A stretch of DNA of 64,000 nt from Gammaproteobacteria bacterium (GTDB lineage Bacteria; Pseudomonadota; Gammaproteobacteria; Eutrophobiales; Eutrophobiaceae): assembly GCA_028279365.1 (NCBI GenBank), contig JANQNX010000013.1, forward strand, positions 248,001 to 312,000, given 5' to 3'. Numbering within the stretch: position 1 is the stretch's first letter; each line of letters opens with the position of its first letter. The translations under genes and the position numbers were made by a program. A model generated the notes under the pieces. It ran no database searches. It was not told the origin of the DNA and worked only from the letters and a program-made list of their open reading frames with translations. This document shows, piece after piece, positions 16,765-57,837 of the stretch.

Positions 16765-17499
16765 ATGGCTGCCAAGAAAAAAACAGCGAAAAAGAAAACA
16801 GCCAAGAAAAAAGTGGCGAAGAAGGCTGCGCCCAAAAAAACCAAGGCAAAAAAGAAAGTCGCCAAGAAAAAAGTCGCGAAAAAGAAAACGGCTAAAAAGA
16901 AAGCCGCCAAGAAAAAAGTTACTAAAAAGAAAACGACGAAAAAGAAAGTCGCCAAGAAAAAAGTCGCGAAAAAGAAAACGGCTAAACCCGCAACTAACAA
17001 GAAAAAAAGTAAAAGCATGTCAGCAGTTCCAAAAAAGAAAACGATAAAGAAAAAAGCCTCGAAAAAAGATGCACAAAAACCCATCGCGCCTTACCAGGAG
17101 AAAAAGGGCGAAGAATATATGAGTACTGAACAACTTGAGCACTTCAAACAGATTCTGCTTAATTGGAAAATGGATTTAATGAAAGAAGTAGACCGAACAG
17201 TTCATCACATGAAAGAGGATGCATCGAACTTTGCCGACCCTTCAGATCGAGCCACGCAAGAAGAGGAATTTGGGCTTGAGTTAAGAACAAGAGACCGCGA
17301 ACGAAAGTTATTAAGGAAAATTAATGCGGCATTATTGCGCGTCGAAGACGGTAGCTATGGCTATTGTGAGGAAACCGGCGAAGAAATTGGCATACGCAGA
17401 TTAGAAGCCCGACCGGTTGCGACACTATGTTTGGAAGCGCAGCAAAGACGCGAATTGGCAAAGAAACAATATCGCGACAGAGAGGATCGCGACAGATAG
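16765..17499 (+). CDS. dksA: RNA polymerase-binding factor DksA with a long lysine-rich N-terminal tail
   Basis: Secondary-channel regulator that works with ppGpp at RNA polymerase. 244 aa, versus about 150 for Escherichia DksA. Residues 1-108 are a histone-H1-like tail of xAKKK pentapeptides; by my count 55 of 108 are Lys. The DksA body starts at PYQEKKGEEYM (109-119). The coiled-coil tip DPSDRA keeps D158, D161 and A163. The zinc-finger positions read C201, T204, C222, A225, so only two of four Cys remain, as in the zinc-independent DksA2-type proteins. gluQ follows, the usual DksA neighbour. An internal ATG at residue 119 could give a tail-less form. Confidence 0.9.
   Translation: MAAKKKTAKKKTAKKKVAKKAAPKKTKAKKKVAKKKVAKKKTAKKKAAKKKVTKKKTTKKKVAKKKVAKKKTAKPATNKKKSKSMSAVPKKKTIKKKASKKDAQKPIAPYQEKKGEEYMSTEQLEHFKQILLNWKMDLMKEVDRTVHHMKEDASNFADPSDRATQEEEFGLELRTRDRERKLLRKINAALLRVEDGSYGYCEETGEEIGIRRLEARPVATLCLEAQQRRELAKKQYRDREDRDR
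16848..16986 (+). repeat. 48-bp direct repeat inside the lysine-rich tail of dksA
   Basis: A 48-base stretch at 16849-16896 recurs exactly at 16939-16986, a period of 90 bases or 30 codons. It encodes part of the xAKKK array. The surrounding tail DNA is built from imperfect 15-base units. In-frame duplication by slippage or unequal exchange would explain it, and tail length may vary between strains. Confidence 0.8.
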
Positions 17500-46742: not shown

Positions 46743-47477
46743 GTGGCGAACAAATGTAACAAGGAGATCAACTCATTCAATTTTGAGCCGGGTCGGGTTA
46801 TCGCCAGAAAATATATTATTGATAAACTACTCGGCTCAGGCTGGGAGGCGGAGGTTTATCTGGTACATGAACGTAGCACCGGTATTGAACGCACTGCCAA
46901 ATTCTTCTTTCCACAACGTAATGTCAACGATCGTGCCGTTAAATTTTATGCACGAAAACTGCACAAACTGCGAAAATGCCCTGTCGTCATTCAGTACTCT
47001 GCGCAGGAAACTGTCACTTATTGCAGGACACCGATTTCCGTCTTGATCTCGGAATATGTTGAGGGTGAGTTATTAACCGAGCATTTAAACGCGCAACGCG
47101 GCAAACGTTTATCGCCGTTTCAGGCATTACATTTGCTTTATTCTCTGGCCAAGGGTATCGAATCCATTCATGCTGTCGGTGAGTATCACGGTGATTTACA
47201 CACTGATAATATTATTGTGCAAAACATTGGCCTGGAGTATCAGTTAAAGATTATTGATATGTTTCAGTGGAATGACTCAAAACGCACGAACATACGTAGC
47301 GATGTGATGGACTTGATTCGTATATTTTATGATGCCCTGGGTGGGCAAAAACATTACGCAAAACAACCGAAAGAAGTTAAAGCGATTATTTGCGGTTTAA
47401 AGCACTCGCTGGCACTAAAGAAATTCAGCAGCGCGGGCAAATTACGCCAATACATAGAAAATATGAATTGGGACTAA
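46743..47477 (+). CDS. Atypical Hanks-type protein kinase
   Basis: 244 aa, soluble. Gly-rich loop LGSGWEAEVYLV (30-41), ATP lysine K53, catalytic loop HGDLHTDN (149-156) with D151. The metal-binding DFG is DMF (172-174), and the catalytic loop has GD rather than RD, so it is a non-RD kinase resembling lipopolysaccharide-kinase or aminoglycoside-kinase relatives. The C lobe is short. GTG start, nine bases after ettA. A PP2C phosphatase follows after 12 bases, suggesting a reversible phosphorylation pair. Confidence 0.8.
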   Translation: MANKCNKEINSFNFEPGRVIARKYIIDKLLGSGWEAEVYLVHERSTGIERTAKFFFPQRNVNDRAVKFYARKLHKLRKCPVVIQYSAQETVTYCRTPISVLISEYVEGELLTEHLNAQRGKRLSPFQALHLLYSLAKGIESIHAVGEYHGDLHTDNIIVQNIGLEYQLKIIDMFQWNDSKRTNIRSDVMDLIRIFYDALGGQKHYAKQPKEVKAIICGLKHSLALKKFSSAGKLRQYIENMNWD

Positions 47478-47489
47478 AAATCCAGATTG

Positions 47490-48305
47490 ATGAACAATCC
47501 AATTGAAAAACCCGTAACGCGATTTGATGCGCGTGATGAGCAACCGGAATATCTGACTTTATCAAATGGCGAAGCAGTGTGTTTTTCTGCTCGCTCCCCT
47601 ACTAAAGATACACCGAATGAAGATGCATTAGCCGTTATCCCGGTGGATGAACAAACAACGGTAATGGTAGTGGCTGATGGCATGGGCGGCATGCCTGCTG
47701 GTGAACAAGCAGCGAGAGTCATTGTTGAATCCATTATTGATGCCTGCAAAACAAAAACAGAACAGCAATTAATACGGGATGTGATTCTAACGGGAATCGA
47801 TCAGGCCAACGCTCGTATTCTTGATCTAAAAACAGGTTCCGGTTCAACCGTGTCCGTTGTAGAAATATCCCGCAACCATATTCGCACTTATTATGCCGGT
47901 GACTCCTTGATTTTACTCACCAGCAGCCATGGCACGATAAAACACTTACCGATGTCGCACTCCCCTATCGGCTACGCGCTCGAATGTGGTGCTATCGAAC
48001 AAACACCGGCAATGGAACACACTGAACGCAACCTGATTTCAAATTATGTTGGCAGTCATGATATGTATATCCATATCGGTCCTGTCATCGAACTGGCACC
48101 GCAGGACACACTCATTATCGCCAGCGACGCGTTATCAGACAATTTATATGAGCAGGAAATCAGCGATTTTATTCGCACTGGCACAATGCTGGAAAGTGTC
48201 AATGAGATGATTCGAAGTTGTCGACATAATATGCTGGAAACCATGCCGAATCGCCGTTGCCATCCTGACGACTTTAGCTTCATCTGTTTCAGACAGCATA
48301 GCTAA
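47490..48305 (+). CDS. PP2C-family protein phosphatase
   Basis: Metal-dependent Ser/Thr phosphatase, about 271 aa. Motifs: TPNEDALAVIP (metal Asp), VVADGMGGMPAGEQAA, a SGSTVSVVEI strand and YYAGDSLILL. The later Asp pair is DALSDN and HPDDFSFI. A TTG lies one codon before the chosen ATG. It follows the atypical kinase by 12 bases; reversing its action is inferred from this pairing. The target is unknown. Confidence 0.88.
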   Translation: MNNPIEKPVTRFDARDEQPEYLTLSNGEAVCFSARSPTKDTPNEDALAVIPVDEQTTVMVVADGMGGMPAGEQAARVIVESIIDACKTKTEQQLIRDVILTGIDQANARILDLKTGSGSTVSVVEISRNHIRTYYAGDSLILLTSSHGTIKHLPMSHSPIGYALECGAIEQTPAMEHTERNLISNYVGSHDMYIHIGPVIELAPQDTLIIASDALSDNLYEQEISDFIRTGTMLESVNEMIRSCRHNMLETMPNRRCHPDDFSFICFRQHS

Positions 48306-48385
48306 GTCAGTTTTTTGTTTCTCCCTGTCAACCGAATGCCGGTTGCTGCGTTAATAGACTTGTTAACCATAAACAGGAGAACAAA

Positions 48386-48754
48386 ATGAAACCAGCATCA
48401 CTTATGCTAACCAGCCTTGTACTATTTAGCTCTTATGTTATCGCCGATGACATGGTTCAGACTAAATTTCAACAAAAGTTGATAAATCAGCTTGATCTGA
48501 CTGAGGAACAAATTGCACCGGTTGAATCGATCATGGCCGAACAAAAGGAAAAGCGAAAAGCCATTATTGAGTCGATGAAAACACAAATGGAGGCGTTACG
48601 AAGTGAAACTCAAACAAAGCTAGCAACGGTATTAAATACTGAACAACTTGCAAAACTGGAGCAGCTACATGAGGAACGTAAGGAAAAACGTGAACAGCGC
48701 AGAAAACAATGGAAAGAAAATCGTATAAGCAAGCTCGAAACAGATAGTGAATAG
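48386..48754 (+). CDS. Spy/CpxP-like periplasmic protein
   Basis: 122 aa. Signal peptide to about residue 20 (VIA-DD). The mature part is charged and helical, with LDLTEEQIAPVESIMAEQ and LNTEQLAKLEQLHEERK, which fit the LTxxQ-type repeats of Spy/CpxP/ZraP chaperones. A clear AGGAG ribosome site precedes it. Envelope-stress or metal-related chaperone function is a family-based guess. A strong hairpin follows. Confidence 0.7.
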   Translation: MKPASLMLTSLVLFSSYVIADDMVQTKFQQKLINQLDLTEEQIAPVESIMAEQKEKRKAIIESMKTQMEALRSETQTKLATVLNTEQLAKLEQLHEERKEKREQRRKQWKENRISKLETDSE

Positions 48755-49170: not shown

Positions 49171-49620
49171 ATGGCTTATTTTAGACATCTACATACAAAA
49201 AGAAGACTCGCGCTTTTGCTCTTCTTTGGCCTGTTGTTACGCTCTTTTGTTGCGCCAGGCTACATGCTTGACACCAAGCCAAGCAATGGTGATTTATTTT
49301 CAGTCATATTATGTAGCGGGCCTGCCGGTATCAACGCAATCGATGCTATTCAGCCCTTGGTCGACTCTCACTCTGATCATCAGCATAATGATTCCGTCTC
49401 AGACCATAAGCACCATGACAATGCAGCGCAAGAGCATGCGTCTTCAACTTGTGGTTTCTGGTCTACCAGCAGTCAGTTACTAGTCACCGAAGTCGATTTT
49501 TTCGCTATTCCGGAACCAGCATTACAACAACAGGTCATTCTCTATCAAACACATTCCTCTGAACGTTCATTAAGAACAAATCACACCGTTCGTGCACCGC
49601 CTATCTCCCCGTTAGTGTAA
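49171..49620 (+). CDS. DUF2946-family His-rich protein
   Basis: 149 aa. Begins with a basic stretch and a signal/membrane segment (LALLLFFGLLLRSFVAPGYML, about 13-33), then C49, a His-rich loop (HSDHQHNDSVSDHKHHD, about 67-83), STCGFWS, and a C terminus with RAPP typical of DUF2946. The usual second Cys of the CPxC motif is absent (CGFW). DUF2946 genes often precede copper-type TonB receptors, as here (80 bases upstream), so metal handling in the envelope is likely. Confidence 0.75.
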   Translation: MAYFRHLHTKRRLALLLFFGLLLRSFVAPGYMLDTKPSNGDLFSVILCSGPAGINAIDAIQPLVDSHSDHQHNDSVSDHKHHDNAAQEHASSTCGFWSTSSQLLVTEVDFFAIPEPALQQQVILYQTHSSERSLRTNHTVRAPPISPLV

Positions 49621-49700
49621 TTCAAGTTTAATTTTTCAAACGCACCTCGAACTATTCGAGTGTGTATTTCGTATCTGTAAATATCTTTAAGGGAGTCACT

Positions 49701-51827
49701 ATGCGTGATTACAAAACGCTCTATGCGAGCACGTTTCTTTTAACATTATTTTATCTGCCTCAGGCTATTGCCGATCATCCTCAAGAACTACCAGATCTGA
49801 CCGTTGCTGGCCGCGCTGAAGGCGGTTTTAAACAAAGCCACATCGGCCCTGAGTCTATCCCCTCCGGTTATGTTGGCGCATCAGAACTGCTGCGTAACGT
49901 TCCCGGTGGTAATTTCAACTTCAACGGAGCGATTAGCGGTCAAACCCAATATCGCGGCTTATTTGGTACACGCATGAACGTCAGGGTTGATGGCGCCTAT
50001 ATTAACTCGGGTGGGCCGAACTGGATGGACCCGCCGTTACATTACCTGCCTAAGACACTGGTTGAATCGATTGAAGTTGAACGCGGCATCCCTTCTGTTA
50101 GTTCAGGTTCGAGTATCGGTGGTTATGTTCAGGCAAAAACCAAATCGAGTAAATTTACCGACTCTGCTAACTTTGAATCGCAAGGTGATATCGAAATTGG
50201 CGGCCACACAGTTGATGACGGCTATAACATTGGTGGTCTATTAGGCTTGGCTAATAATCAACATCGCTTTCATTTCCTTGGCAGCCGCGATGAAGGTAAC
50301 GATTTTGAGTTTGGCGATGGAGACATCAATGGTAGTAGTTACGAGCGTGATAATTTTGGTGCGGGCTATGGTTTTCGCACAGGCAATAATGAGCTGGCAG
50401 TAAATTATCGTCACCAGGATACGGGACCGACCGGAACTCCGGCGCTGCCACTGGATATCGTGTTGTTTAATACCGAACTATTTAATGCAAAATATAATAC
50501 CAAAGTTGGCGATGTTGCTATCGATACCACCTTGTATTACACCGACGTCGTCCATCAAATGAATAACTTTTCCTTACGACCTGCGCCTGACTTCTTTACC
50601 CCTCCGGTAACAGGCGATGACCGTCGCGTTATTGACGCAACGTCAGACAGTATCGGTTATTCAATTCAGGCGACTATGCCGTTTATGCAGGGCGATCTGC
50701 GTTTTGGTTTTGATGGCAACTTTAATGATCACGACGCCGTCGTATCCGATCCGGATCAAGCCTCATTCTCGGTTACCAATTTCAACAATGTTGAAAGTGA
50801 TAACTACAGTTTGTTCGCTGAAACGGAGCAATCTCTAAATTCACGCCTCGATCTTGAACTGGGTCTGCGCTATACCCGTGTCACAATGGATGCCGATGAT
50901 GTTTCGGCAACGGTAACACCAATGGGCACTGCCGGACCTACTGCAGCATTAAGCTCGGCCTTTAATGCATCAAATCGTGAACAGACGGATGATAATATTG
51001 ATTGGGTAGCGGAGCTGGATTATGCCGTCAGCGATCATTTATCGGTGGAGTTGGGTGCGGCACGCAAGACGCGTTCGCCTTATTATGTCGAACGCTATTT
51101 GTGGATTCCGCTCGAGGTAAATGCCGGCTTGGGTGATGGCAATGTCTATGTTGGCGACGTCAATCTCGACCCCGAGGTATCCCACCAGTTGGAATTTGGC
51201 TTTGATCTTCATCATCATCATTATTATTTCTCACCACGTGCTTTCTACCGCCTGGTCGATGACTACATTCAGGGAACGGCATCAACTAATGCGTCGGTGC
51301 TAACCGTTGCAAATTTAAATAGTGACTCGACCCCGCTTGTGTTTACCAATGTCGATGCAGAACTTTATGGTTTCGATGCCGACTGGGGTTACGCTTTTGA
51401 TAATCAATGGCGTTTAAATGGTGTGATTAGTTATGTGCGCGGTAAACGTCGCGATATCGACGATAATTTGTACCGTATCGCACCGTTGAACAGCAGAGTC
51501 ACATTAACCCATGAACGAGAAACCTGGTCAGCCTCAATCGAAGGCGTATTTGTCGCCAGACAACATGATATTTCCGATGAGATCGTCAGCAATGAGAGTA
51601 GAACACTTAATGGTGATACCCCGGGTTATATGCTAATGAATATTGCTGCTCAATGGCGTCCGGCCAAGGGAATATTCATCAATAGTGGTGTCGGAAACCT
51701 TTTTGACAAGGATTACATCGACCACCTGAGCGGATTCAACCGTAACAGCGCCAGTGATGTGCCGGTTGGTTCCAGGTTGCCGGGTTTGGGCCGCAACCTG
51801 TTCGCGACACTAACCTATCAGTGGTAA
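49701..51827 (+). CDS. TonB-dependent outer-membrane receptor, copper (OprC)-like
   Basis: About 708 aa from the ATG at 49701, which has a strong AAGGGAG ribosome site. Signal peptide ends QAIA-DH. Plug domain: ELPDLTVAGRAEGG, NVPGGNFNFNGAISGQTQYRG, and WMDPPLHYLPKTLVESIEVERG, whose MDPP motif recalls OprC-type copper receptors. A barrel of about 22 strands follows, with a His-cluster DLHHHHYYFS, ending LFATLTYQW. The DUF2946 gene just upstream supports copper as ligand; other metals or metallophores remain possible. Confidence 0.82.
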   Translation: MRDYKTLYASTFLLTLFYLPQAIADHPQELPDLTVAGRAEGGFKQSHIGPESIPSGYVGASELLRNVPGGNFNFNGAISGQTQYRGLFGTRMNVRVDGAYINSGGPNWMDPPLHYLPKTLVESIEVERGIPSVSSGSSIGGYVQAKTKSSKFTDSANFESQGDIEIGGHTVDDGYNIGGLLGLANNQHRFHFLGSRDEGNDFEFGDGDINGSSYERDNFGAGYGFRTGNNELAVNYRHQDTGPTGTPALPLDIVLFNTELFNAKYNTKVGDVAIDTTLYYTDVVHQMNNFSLRPAPDFFTPPVTGDDRRVIDATSDSIGYSIQATMPFMQGDLRFGFDGNFNDHDAVVSDPDQASFSVTNFNNVESDNYSLFAETEQSLNSRLDLELGLRYTRVTMDADDVSATVTPMGTAGPTAALSSAFNASNREQTDDNIDWVAELDYAVSDHLSVELGAARKTRSPYYVERYLWIPLEVNAGLGDGNVYVGDVNLDPEVSHQLEFGFDLHHHHYYFSPRAFYRLVDDYIQGTASTNASVLTVANLNSDSTPLVFTNVDAELYGFDADWGYAFDNQWRLNGVISYVRGKRRDIDDNLYRIAPLNSRVTLTHERETWSASIEGVFVARQHDISDEIVSNESRTLNGDTPGYMLMNIAAQWRPAKGIFINSGVGNLFDKDYIDHLSGFNRNSASDVPVGSRLPGLGRNLFATLTYQW

Positions 51828-52000: not shown

Positions 52001-54091
52001 ATGGCGGAAGATTACCCTAGAGATGCACTCGAACCCGGTTATCAATTACTTTGGTACAAGATTGATAAAGTGCTAGGTGAAGGTGGGTTTGGCATGACCT
52101 ATCTGGCGCATGACGTAAATCTCGACAAACTAGTTGCAATCAAGGAATACCTTCCATCAGACATGTGCCGGCGACAAGACGATAAAACGATTTCGCCAAA
52201 TACCAAATCGCTGGAAGATTTTGAAACTGGTTTAACCCGTTTTATCCGGGAAGCTCGCACCATTGCTAAATTTGATCATCCTCACGTCGTCAAAGTCACG
52301 AACGTTTTTGAGGAAAACAATACGGCTTATATGGCGATGGCCTATGAAAAAGGTAAAGATTTAAAAAGTTATATTAACCCCAGAAAAACCCTGGATGAAG
52401 ACCATCTGCTATCGTTAATGTTACCGATCCTTGAAGGACTGGAATATGTACATAACACCGGCTTTATTCATCGTGATATCAAACCTGGCAATATCATGAT
52501 CCGCGAAGATGGGAGTCCGGTATTGATCGATTTTGGCTCAGTGCATGACACGAAAAGAGCAAAAGAAGCCGTCACTACCCTGGTTTCACCTGGCTATACG
52601 CCGCATGAACAATATGTAGGGAAATCTGATGCCCAGGGCCCCTGGACGGACATCTATAGTCTGGGCGCTACCTTGTATCGTTGTGTCTGCGGTACGCATC
52701 CAGTCGATGCGATTACCCGTGGTAGCGCATTAATTAAACAACAACCCGATCCATTACACCCTGCCAGTGAAATAGCAAAGGGGAAATATACAGAATCATT
52801 CTTGCTAGCCATTGATCACGCACTCGCTTTCAATGAAAAAGAGCGACCAAAAAATATCAGCGATTGGCGCTCGGAATTAATCGGCAATAAAACAGTTACA
52901 TTTTCGACATCTCGTTATACAGGCACGGTTAATAGCACTTACACAACGCATACTAAAACCGGTGATACAGTACAGTTAAATTCATCAGCTGATGGAAAGA
53001 AGTCAGGAGGCACAGCTAAGTATACAATCGCGGCGGTTATTATTGCATCGATTACTGCAGCCTTCCTGTTCACAAGCAACAAGGGCGGTAATTCACCAGA
53101 TATAAATATCTCTTCCACCTCAAAAGTAACGCCTATTGAAACCCCGACCGAAACGACTATTGAGACAGCAAAAACTGAAGATAATCGTCCTATCACGGCA
53201 ACAGCAACTGTTCTAAAAGAAGCGTTAAGTGAATTTTCGGACTCATTAAAAGATGGAACATCTGGACCTTCACTCGTCGTCCTCCCAAAAGGAACAATAG
53301 AAATTGGTAGTGATGAATCTGAAAAAGGACATCGACCAGATGAATGGCCAAAAACAGCTGTAACTATCGAACAGACTTATGCTATCGGCAAGACAGAAGT
53401 GACGGTCCGTGATTTTAGAAAATTTGTTTCAGCTACAGCTTATCTGACCGAAGCAGAACTCGATACGTCCAGAGGCTGTCGAACATTTGAAGATGGTTGG
53501 GGTTGGTCGGCTGGACGTTCATGGAAAGACCCAGGCTATAAACAAACAGAAAAGCACCCTGTGGTTTGCATCAGCTGGAATGATGCACTCGCTTATGTAA
53601 ACTGGTTATCGGCACAAACCGGTTTTGACTACCAGCTTCCTTCAGAAACATTATGGGAATATGCAGCCCGTGCAGGCAAGCAAGATACGCGTTTTTGGGG
53701 AGATAAAAAAGCCTGTGATTATGCCAATGTCTCAGACTTCACTCGCGCACAAATGCACAGCCTGACCATATCTGAAGAGAATATTTTTCCATGTGAAGAC
53801 GGATTTACTTACAGTGCAGAAGCTGCTTCATTCGCACCAAATGATTATGGGCTTCACGATACGCTGGGCAATGTATGGGAATGGACTGCAGACTGTTGGG
53901 TTGATAGTTATTCAAATATAGATACTAGTGGCGCGACAAGAAACACAAACAATTGTAACAACCGCATCTATCGTGGCGGTTCATGGGGTAACTTGCCGGT
54001 ATTGGTTAGAGCTGCAAAACGCTTGACCGATCCATCCAATTATCGTTATTACAATTTAGGTTTCAGAATTAGTCGAATTATTGAAGGATAA
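52001..54091 (+). CDS. Transmembrane Ser/Thr kinase fused to a SUMF1/formylglycine-type domain
   Basis: 696 aa. Cytoplasmic Hanks kinase (about 15-290): GEGGFGMTYL, ATP lysine K48, HRDIKPGN with D159, DFG at 177-179, activation loop SPGYTPHEQY. A single membrane helix (about 341-358) follows a Thr/Ser-rich linker. The extracytoplasmic part (about 425-695) is a SUMF1/EgtB/PvdO-like domain: WPKTAVTIEQTYAIGKTEV, LPSETLWEYAARAG, YGLHDTLGNVWEWTADCW, IYRGGSWGNLP, GFRISR. Whether the outer domain is a sensor or an enzyme is unknown. AGGA ribosome site. Confidence 0.88.
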   Translation: MAEDYPRDALEPGYQLLWYKIDKVLGEGGFGMTYLAHDVNLDKLVAIKEYLPSDMCRRQDDKTISPNTKSLEDFETGLTRFIREARTIAKFDHPHVVKVTNVFEENNTAYMAMAYEKGKDLKSYINPRKTLDEDHLLSLMLPILEGLEYVHNTGFIHRDIKPGNIMIREDGSPVLIDFGSVHDTKRAKEAVTTLVSPGYTPHEQYVGKSDAQGPWTDIYSLGATLYRCVCGTHPVDAITRGSALIKQQPDPLHPASEIAKGKYTESFLLAIDHALAFNEKERPKNISDWRSELIGNKTVTFSTSRYTGTVNSTYTTHTKTGDTVQLNSSADGKKSGGTAKYTIAAVIIASITAAFLFTSNKGGNSPDINISSTSKVTPIETPTETTIETAKTEDNRPITATATVLKEALSEFSDSLKDGTSGPSLVVLPKGTIEIGSDESEKGHRPDEWPKTAVTIEQTYAIGKTEVTVRDFRKFVSATAYLTEAELDTSRGCRTFEDGWGWSAGRSWKDPGYKQTEKHPVVCISWNDALAYVNWLSAQTGFDYQLPSETLWEYAARAGKQDTRFWGDKKACDYANVSDFTRAQMHSLTISEENIFPCEDGFTYSAEAASFAPNDYGLHDTLGNVWEWTADCWVDSYSNIDTSGATRNTNNCNNRIYRGGSWGNLPVLVRAAKRLTDPSNYRYYNLGFRISRIIEG

Positions 54092-56749: not shown

Positions 56750-56886
56750 TTATATCGATTAGTCTGGCAAAAACTTTAACAAAACTTTAATAATTGTTAT
56801 TCGTTACCCAATAAATAATATGTTTTAAAATTAGAAAATCCTGTTTTTGCAGGGAATTCAGACAGGCAAGAGCGTTAAATTAGCGA

Positions 56887-57837
56887 CTAGTCTGCAACAG
56901 TCAATTCCATATTGTGAGAACTTTCTGACGAACCCTTCATATCTTGTGAGTCATGCCCATGCGTGGATTCCATACTGTGAGAACTTTCTGACGACCCTTT
57001 CATATCATGTGAGTCATGCCCATGCGTGGATTCCATACTGTGAGAACTTTCTGACGACCCTTTCATATCATGCGAGTCATGGCCTAGTGTTGATTCCATA
57101 CTGTGAGAACTTTCTGACGACCCTTTCATATCATGCGAGTCATGGCCTAGTGTTGACTCCATACTGTGAGAACTTTCTGACGACCCTTTCATATCGTGTG
57201 AATCATGACCCAGGTTAGATTCCATACTGTGTGAAGCTTCAGAAGAACCCTTCATGTCATGTGAGTCATGACCCAGGTTAGATTCCATACTGTGTGAAGT
57301 TTCAGAAGAACCCTTCATGTCGTGTGAGTCATGACCCAACGTGGATTCCATACTATGCGAATTCTTTGGCTCTAATTTTGCGGATGTCGATGACTGCTTT
57401 TTTTGTACTGGTGACGCTTTAGCCTTAAGAAAACGCTTGTTGTCAAATGTGTCCAGGTTCATCAACACCGTATAAGTTCGGGAGAGTTTGGCGTCTTCAG
57501 TAGAGAGATCGATAACAACATCCAGATAAAGCTGGTTAATGTTTTGACTGGACTCCAGCCATACATAGTGCTTTTCTGCCTTGTCGGTGAATAACGATGC
57601 AGAAATAGACTCGATTCCCGGTTGATAATCTAATCCCATGCTATGGTAAGCATAAGGTTCGGCAAGCTTCACCTGATTAATATCAGCCATAGAGTCACCA
57701 TGAAAATAAATCGGCACCCTTGCCTTGAAGGGTTCATTAAAAGAAGACATCAACTCAATCTCACCAAGACTGGCTGCTGTCACAACATTAGAAAAAAACA
57801 AACAGGTTGAGAGTAAAACGGGCTGATAAATTTTCAT
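56887..57837 (-). CDS. FimV-N-domain protein with a His/Met-rich tandem-repeat tail
   Basis: About 316 aa from the ATG at 57837, where a signal peptide begins (ending VVTAASLGEIEL). Residues 22-130 match the FimV N-terminal domain: SLGEIELMSSFNEPF, VKLAEPYAYHSMGLD and SRTYTVLMNLDTF. A short basic linker leads to seven 21-residue repeats (160-306; consensus SHSMES-LGHDSHDMKGSSE) and a partial eighth. The LysM and long coiled parts of true FimV are missing. His and Met spaced as HDSHDM suggest metal binding. Function unknown; a mauG-like gene lies 137 bases downstream on the same strand. Confidence 0.8.
   Translation of the reverse strand: MKIYQPVLLSTCLFFSNVVTAASLGEIELMSSFNEPFKARVPIYFHGDSMADINQVKLAEPYAYHSMGLDYQPGIESISASLFTDKAEKHYVWLESSQNINQLYLDVVIDLSTEDAKLSRTYTVLMNLDTFDNKRFLKAKASPVQKKQSSTSAKLEPKNSHSMESTLGHDSHDMKGSSETSHSMESNLGHDSHDMKGSSEASHSMESNLGHDSHDMKGSSESSHSMESTLGHDSHDMKGSSESSHSMESTLGHDSHDMKGSSESSHSMESTHGHDSHDMKGSSESSHSMESTHGHDSQDMKGSSESSHNMELTVAD
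56890..57360 (-). repeat. 63-bp coding tandem repeat, seven full copies plus a partial
   Basis: Seven units of exactly 63 bases (56920-57360) and a 30-base partial unit (56890-56919) encode the His/Met-rich tail. Units vary in sequence; neighbouring copies 4 and 5 (by protein order) differ at one base, suggesting recent duplication. Not a CRISPR: units are contiguous, without spacers, and keep the reading frame. Confidence 0.92.

Follow-up and report, generated by a model that had tools for sequence, protein, structure and literature searches.

The window, a 64,000-nucleotide stretch of gammaproteobacterial DNA, carries on its minus strand a gene that joins a FimV_N domain to a His/Met-rich repeat tail, with the following features:

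56887..57837, minus strand: gene for the FimV_N–His/Met repeat protein, 316 aa; Pfam FimV_N E 1.4e-19
57772..57837, minus strand: predicted signal peptide, about residues 1-22, MKIYQPVLLSTCLFFSNVVTAA, read from the sequence
57457..57771, minus strand: FimV_N Ig-like domain, residues 23-127 (Pfam PF25800), with beta strands predicted over 21-127
56920..57360, minus strand: seven units of 63 bp / 21 aa, residues 160-306, from Tandem Repeats Finder and unit reading
56890..56919, minus strand: partial final unit SHNMELTVAD from unit reading, adding one H-x-M

The open reading frame starts with an ATG at 57837 and ends with a stop codon at 56887-56889, giving 316 aa. A GTG upstream would add 17 residues; we prefer the ATG because the homologue described below begins right at its own signal peptide. 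Reading the signal peptide by eye, we saw no lipobox with G, A or S before Cys, and the Pfam scan of the 316-aa protein returned no LysM at E-values up to 0.1 and nothing beyond residue 127, the protein terminating after its hydrophilic repeats. The original prediction, a secreted-type FimV_N domain followed by seven 21-residue repeats and not by LysM, was thus correct in its architecture and exact in its coordinates. No convincing promoter or terminator signals were detected for the gene, and its base composition (GC 0.43, against 0.435 for the window) gives no sign of recent foreign origin. An antisense open reading frame at 56847-57218 was rejected as a by-product of the repeat. Elsewhere in the window, a protein that appears DksA-like by eye (16765-17499) has a long N-terminal Lys/Ala repeat, its coding sequence there being an imperfect tandem array (16771-16986).

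AlphaFold, run on a two-row alignment, predicts a beta-sandwich at residues 21-127 with moderate confidence and an unstructured tail. Compared with PDB folds, the N-domain resembles generic Ig-like and adaptor-appendage domains (best Z 7.3). Its Foldseek match to CopC (6nfs) is weak (E 0.04), unrelated Ig-like folds scoring equally well; CopC is absent from the VIA-align list of the same fold comparison, and the predicted mature N-terminus has no His, the residue that serves as N-terminal ligand in the CopC fold. The fold matches of this modelled domain say nothing about metal, and a sequence search of the PDB found no relative of the protein.

Tandem Repeats Finder places the array at 56904-57361 (7.3 copies, 90% matches, score 573), with the period of 63 bp that had been predicted. 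The encoded unit reads S-H-S-M-E-S-T/N-L/H-G-H-D-S-H-D-M-K-G-S-S-E-x and holds three His, two Met and four acidic residues, in agreement with the earlier estimate of about three, two and several; unit 6 has four His, and unit 7 has gained one His and lost another to Gln. Each unit contains two H-x-M motifs except unit 7, in which the second His is the Gln. Altogether, the 157-residue tail contains 23 His, 15 Met (9.6%), 48 Ser and 30 Asp+Glu, with 14 H-x-M and no HxxM motifs, and no stretch of the window's other long open frames is as rich in His+Met. Units 4 and 5 differ by a single base, and assembly could have altered the copy number of seven.

A codon-wise comparison among the seven units gave pS of 0.63 and pN of 0.05 (pN/pS 0.08). 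By a minimal count there are 21 silent and 5 replacement changes, although in the absence of selection roughly 80% of changes should be replacements (binomial P 2.9e-11, approximate because each column is counted as an independent event). Neither Met column varies across the seven units, and the shared His columns are constant too but for the single His-to-Gln change in unit 7, their codons varying silently between CAC and CAT. Since homogenisation at the DNA level would have erased silent changes as well, this pattern points to selection at the amino-acid level, and the protein sequence of the repeat is under purifying selection.

The next match to the protein in the window's own genome is a true FimV of 1176 aa, encoded by a separate gene, and FimV genes are common across the 53 family genomes and 369 class genomes that we searched. 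Among the matches listed in these genomes, a short protein joining FimV_N to a His/Met tail occurs in G021 only (WLWS01000001.1), a gammaproteobacterial MAG labelled MH-Pat-SR, an assembly obtained from the marine sponge Mycale hentscheli (PMC7157528). The known sequences with this architecture number two. The G021 homologue has 209 aa (FimV_N E 2.8e-27), and its tail comprises 3.5 units of 18 aa, SHSMESHSMEATLDKGND, with seven H-x-M motifs, the full units differing from one another by silent changes only. Aligned units of the two proteins have SHSME, T-L-G and D-S-H-x-M in common, such that an ancestral SHxM(E/K)-type unit appears to have been amplified separately, into 7 x 21 residues in the window and 3.5 x 18 in G021. 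H-x-M was kept although the units differ in length, which is what one would expect if function lay in the motif.

Wider searches of plasmids, phages, IMG/VR and about 85,000 species genomes gave no relative but G021, using pattern scans that reach close relatives only. Searches with both parts of the protein had been proposed in the original prediction; the tail alone, queried against the 369 class genomes without G021 as a positive control, recovers only the window's own gene. Short FimV_N proteins elsewhere were considered as relatives and rejected, as they consist of the N-domain only, lie between asd and fimV and have no His/Met tail. Such N-domain-only proteins, of 131-143 aa, stand in this position in several relatives and are apparently a recurrent companion of FimV:

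L120, 2369-2764: N-domain-only FimV_N gene
L121, 1682-2113: N-domain-only FimV_N gene
L122, 2076-2495: N-domain-only FimV_N gene

A further stand-alone FimV_N protein, of 135 aa, is encoded away from fimV at L118 2976-3383, with a PP2C-type phosphatase fragment about 2.5 kb away. The same N-domain with other tails or none, which the original prediction had set against its metal reading, thus exists in FimV and the N-domain-only proteins, and the N-domain accordingly lends no support to a metal role; the tail of the homologue, for its part, keeps H-x-M.

Directly preceding the homologue in G021, and separated from it by 27 bp, is a gene for a 725-aa fusion in which a Ser/Thr kinase is followed by a hydrophobic segment and a domain of the FGE-sulfatase type (PF03781). 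Its orthologue lies in the window:

52001..54091, plus strand: Ser/Thr protein kinase–TM–FGE-like (PF03781) fusion, orthologous to the gene adjoining the G021 homologue

The two fusions share 57-58% identity over their full length. In the window, the kinase fusion is located 2.8 kb from the FimV_N–His/Met gene and on the opposite strand, with a chemotaxis receptor gene and a di-haem peroxidase-like gene in between. When all window open frames were compared with the 19.5-kb G021 locus, the kinase fusion and the FimV_N gene were the only matches. Full-length orthologues of the kinase fusion and the FimV_N–His/Met gene occur in the same 2 of the 53 family genomes (Fisher P 7e-4, a statistic resting on two genomes), and no further full-length kinase-fusion orthologue was found in the 369 class genomes at the same stringency. 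A genome of the same genus (G001) has neither gene, and in G058 the glycosyltransferase and HAD-type neighbours from the window stand side by side without the pair. The kinase and FimV_N–His/Met genes are inherited together; this link is a genetic association only, from which we infer a functional one.

The next-best kinase–FGE gene (40%), in G015, was rejected as a second case of the pair, as it belongs to an array of such genes with no FimV_N protein. In this array (L113, G015:C1:3414000-3433900), five or more large genes that fuse a Ser/Thr kinase to FGE-like domains, some of them to two, follow one another head-to-tail. True formylglycine-generating enzymes carry paired Cys at a characteristic place. 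In our alignment reading, the FGE-like domains of the kinase fusions have no paired Cys there, and are therefore likely to bind rather than to catalyse.

The association could mean that the kinase's FGE-like domain recognises the FimV_N protein as ligand or partner, the repeat tail then serving for binding or as a spacer and having nothing to do with metal. The exact co-occurrence of the genes, and their being the only window genes with matches at the G021 locus, speak for such an interaction, yet the co-occurrence is one of two genomes, and a spacer hardly explains a fixed H-x-M kept through separate amplification, so that we consider this rather unlikely. A variant in which the two genes form a mobile module, the protein loading metal and acting as a periplasmic ligand that reports copper or Met oxidation to the kinase, strikes us as distinctly improbable.

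In G021, a gene for a secreted MsrA (TIGR00401 E 1.9e-57) begins about 29 bp downstream of the FimV_N homologue. Scavenging of oxidants with recycling by Msr enzymes has been proposed for Met-rich proteins of the MrpX type, MrpX itself being secreted, rich in Met and encoded close to a methionine sulfoxide reductase gene (MsrP). The Met residues of the tail could likewise serve as a sink for periplasmic HOCl, peroxide or similar, recycled by MsrA, a possibility favoured by the MsrA gene in G021, by the di-haem peroxidase-like gene adjoining the window copy and by the conservation of Met in every unit. However, Met makes up less than a tenth of the tail and is outnumbered by His (23 vs 15), scavenging needs no His at a fixed distance from each Met, and the window copy has no adjoining Msr gene, both MsrA genes of the genome being located elsewhere. 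The likeness to MrpX in having an Msr gene close by is seen in the G021 homologue; in contrast to MrpX, His exceeds Met, the enzyme is MsrA and not MsrP, and a kinase gene is linked. A role as oxidant sink therefore seems to us fairly improbable.

The two copies share no neighbouring metal-resistance gene, no sil/pco operon genes were recognised among the window neighbours or at the G021 locus, and CopB (PF05275) is absent from the protein (by Pfam) and from the whole genome. Five kb from the FimV_N–His/Met gene, the window contains a DUF2946 gene with a His-rich loop (HSDHQHNDSVSDHKHHDN; 49171-49620) and a TonB receptor gene (49662-51827) whose best NCBIfam match, the copper receptor TIGR01778, is well below cut-off. 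This pair is missing at the G021 locus and is hence weak evidence for a metal context. The copper or silver binding suggested in the original prediction thus has no conserved adjoining metal gene to back it, while the predicted architecture and the His/Met reading are upheld by a homologue that keeps H-x-M. The original prediction did not include the two associations seen in relatives, with the kinase–FGE fusion gene and, in G021, with the secreted MsrA. Upstream of the DUF2946 gene, and close to the kinase–FGE fusion, 46743-48754 holds a kinase-like gene, a PP2C phosphatase gene and a gene for a small exported protein that is Spy-like by eye.

The tail might instead buffer borderline divalent metals (Zn, Ni, Co, Cu(II)), mainly through His and Asp, with Met incidental or adding softness. 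The H-D-S-H-D clusters and the four acidic residues per unit would suit such a buffer, as would the DUF2946/TonB-receptor pair, given that a Caulobacter Zur study lists DUF2946 genes among those down-regulated, one of them beside czr/zntA efflux genes (PMC4176598). In the G021 homologue, however, the H-D cluster is reduced and SHSME predominates, which leaves H-x-M as the conserved part; we judge a divalent-metal buffer unlikely.

As in FimV, one of the FimV/HubP/TspA landmark proteins of the cell pole, a signal peptide is followed here by the FimV_N Ig-like domain (PF25800, E 1.4e-19), which is present in FimV and absent from the HubP of Vibrio and Shewanella. Unlike FimV and HubP, the protein has no periplasmic LysM and its tail is a low-complexity repeat; unlike FimV, it has no TM after the domain, no acidic cytoplasmic region and no C-terminal TPR. 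In P. putida FimV, the FimV_N domain is required for correct placement (PMC12918733). With SilE and PcoE the protein shares a periplasmic location (here predicted), disorder and repeated His/Met-rich motifs, but the SilE motifs are MxxHx5-6HxxM and HxxMxxxHxxM (PMC5008109), their HxxM/MxxH elements having an i to i+3/4 spacing, whereas here there are 14 H-x-M, no HxxM and an additional folded FimV_N domain. The N-terminal domain of PcoB/CopB and the internal segment of CopI likewise join a disordered His/Met-rich segment to a folded domain, and these segments are needed for copper tolerance in PcoB and CopI (PMC12509749; PMC13308877); the folded part there is an outer-membrane barrel or a cupredoxin. 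By membership features, the protein is outside both FimV/HubP and SilE/PcoE, and it would work as a His/Met metal sponge.

We favour, at about even chances, an envelope sponge that binds Cu(I)/Ag(I), with Met perhaps kept reduced by Msr enzymes. The protein would be exported via Sec to the envelope, where its folded FimV_N Ig-like domain (23-127) would tether it to some partner, and the disordered tail would offer 14 S-H-x-M half-units to a soft thiophilic metal, with His imidazole and Met thioether as ligands for most likely Cu(I) and possibly Ag(I). The tail would then work as a sponge or buffer, holding more metal the more repeats it has. The Met residues would need to be in the reduced state, which the secreted MsrA beside the homologue could ensure, and the protein would belong with the membrane Ser/Thr kinase, whose FGE-like domain is placed beyond the membrane and which it may contact. 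In its favour stand the His/Met content of the tail with its 14 H-x-M, the selection on the repeat sequence, the H-x-M of the homologue, the MsrA gene there and the predicted lack of structure in the tail. In SilE (PMC5008109), PcoB (PMC12509749) and CopI (PMC13308877), the disordered periplasmic segments rich in His and Met bind or handle Cu/Ag, and under copper stress E. coli MsrP maintains the Met of the copper chaperone CusF in reduced form (PMC9302797). A metal sponge would account for the fixed His–Met spacing, for the drift elsewhere between lineages and for the usefulness of MsrA. Against it, the abundant Ser and acidic residues of the tail would also suit Zn/Ni or a hydrophilic spacer, no metal-resistance neighbour is common to both copies, the H-x-M spacing is not that of SilE, the likeness to CopC is weak and the known sequences are two. 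The metal reading is plausible but based on composition and analogy.

The claim that no described family has this architecture agrees with the open-access full-text literature, in which we found no paper describing a FimV_N–His/Met protein. Disordered His/Met sponges are known; the FimV_N scaffold, the strict H-x-M repeat and the pairing with a Ser/Thr kinase are, as far as found, undescribed. If copper is bound, the repeat number would provide a natural series relating capacity to copies, and the pairing with the kinase would offer a candidate case of a bacterial eukaryotic-type kinase that senses metal or redox state.
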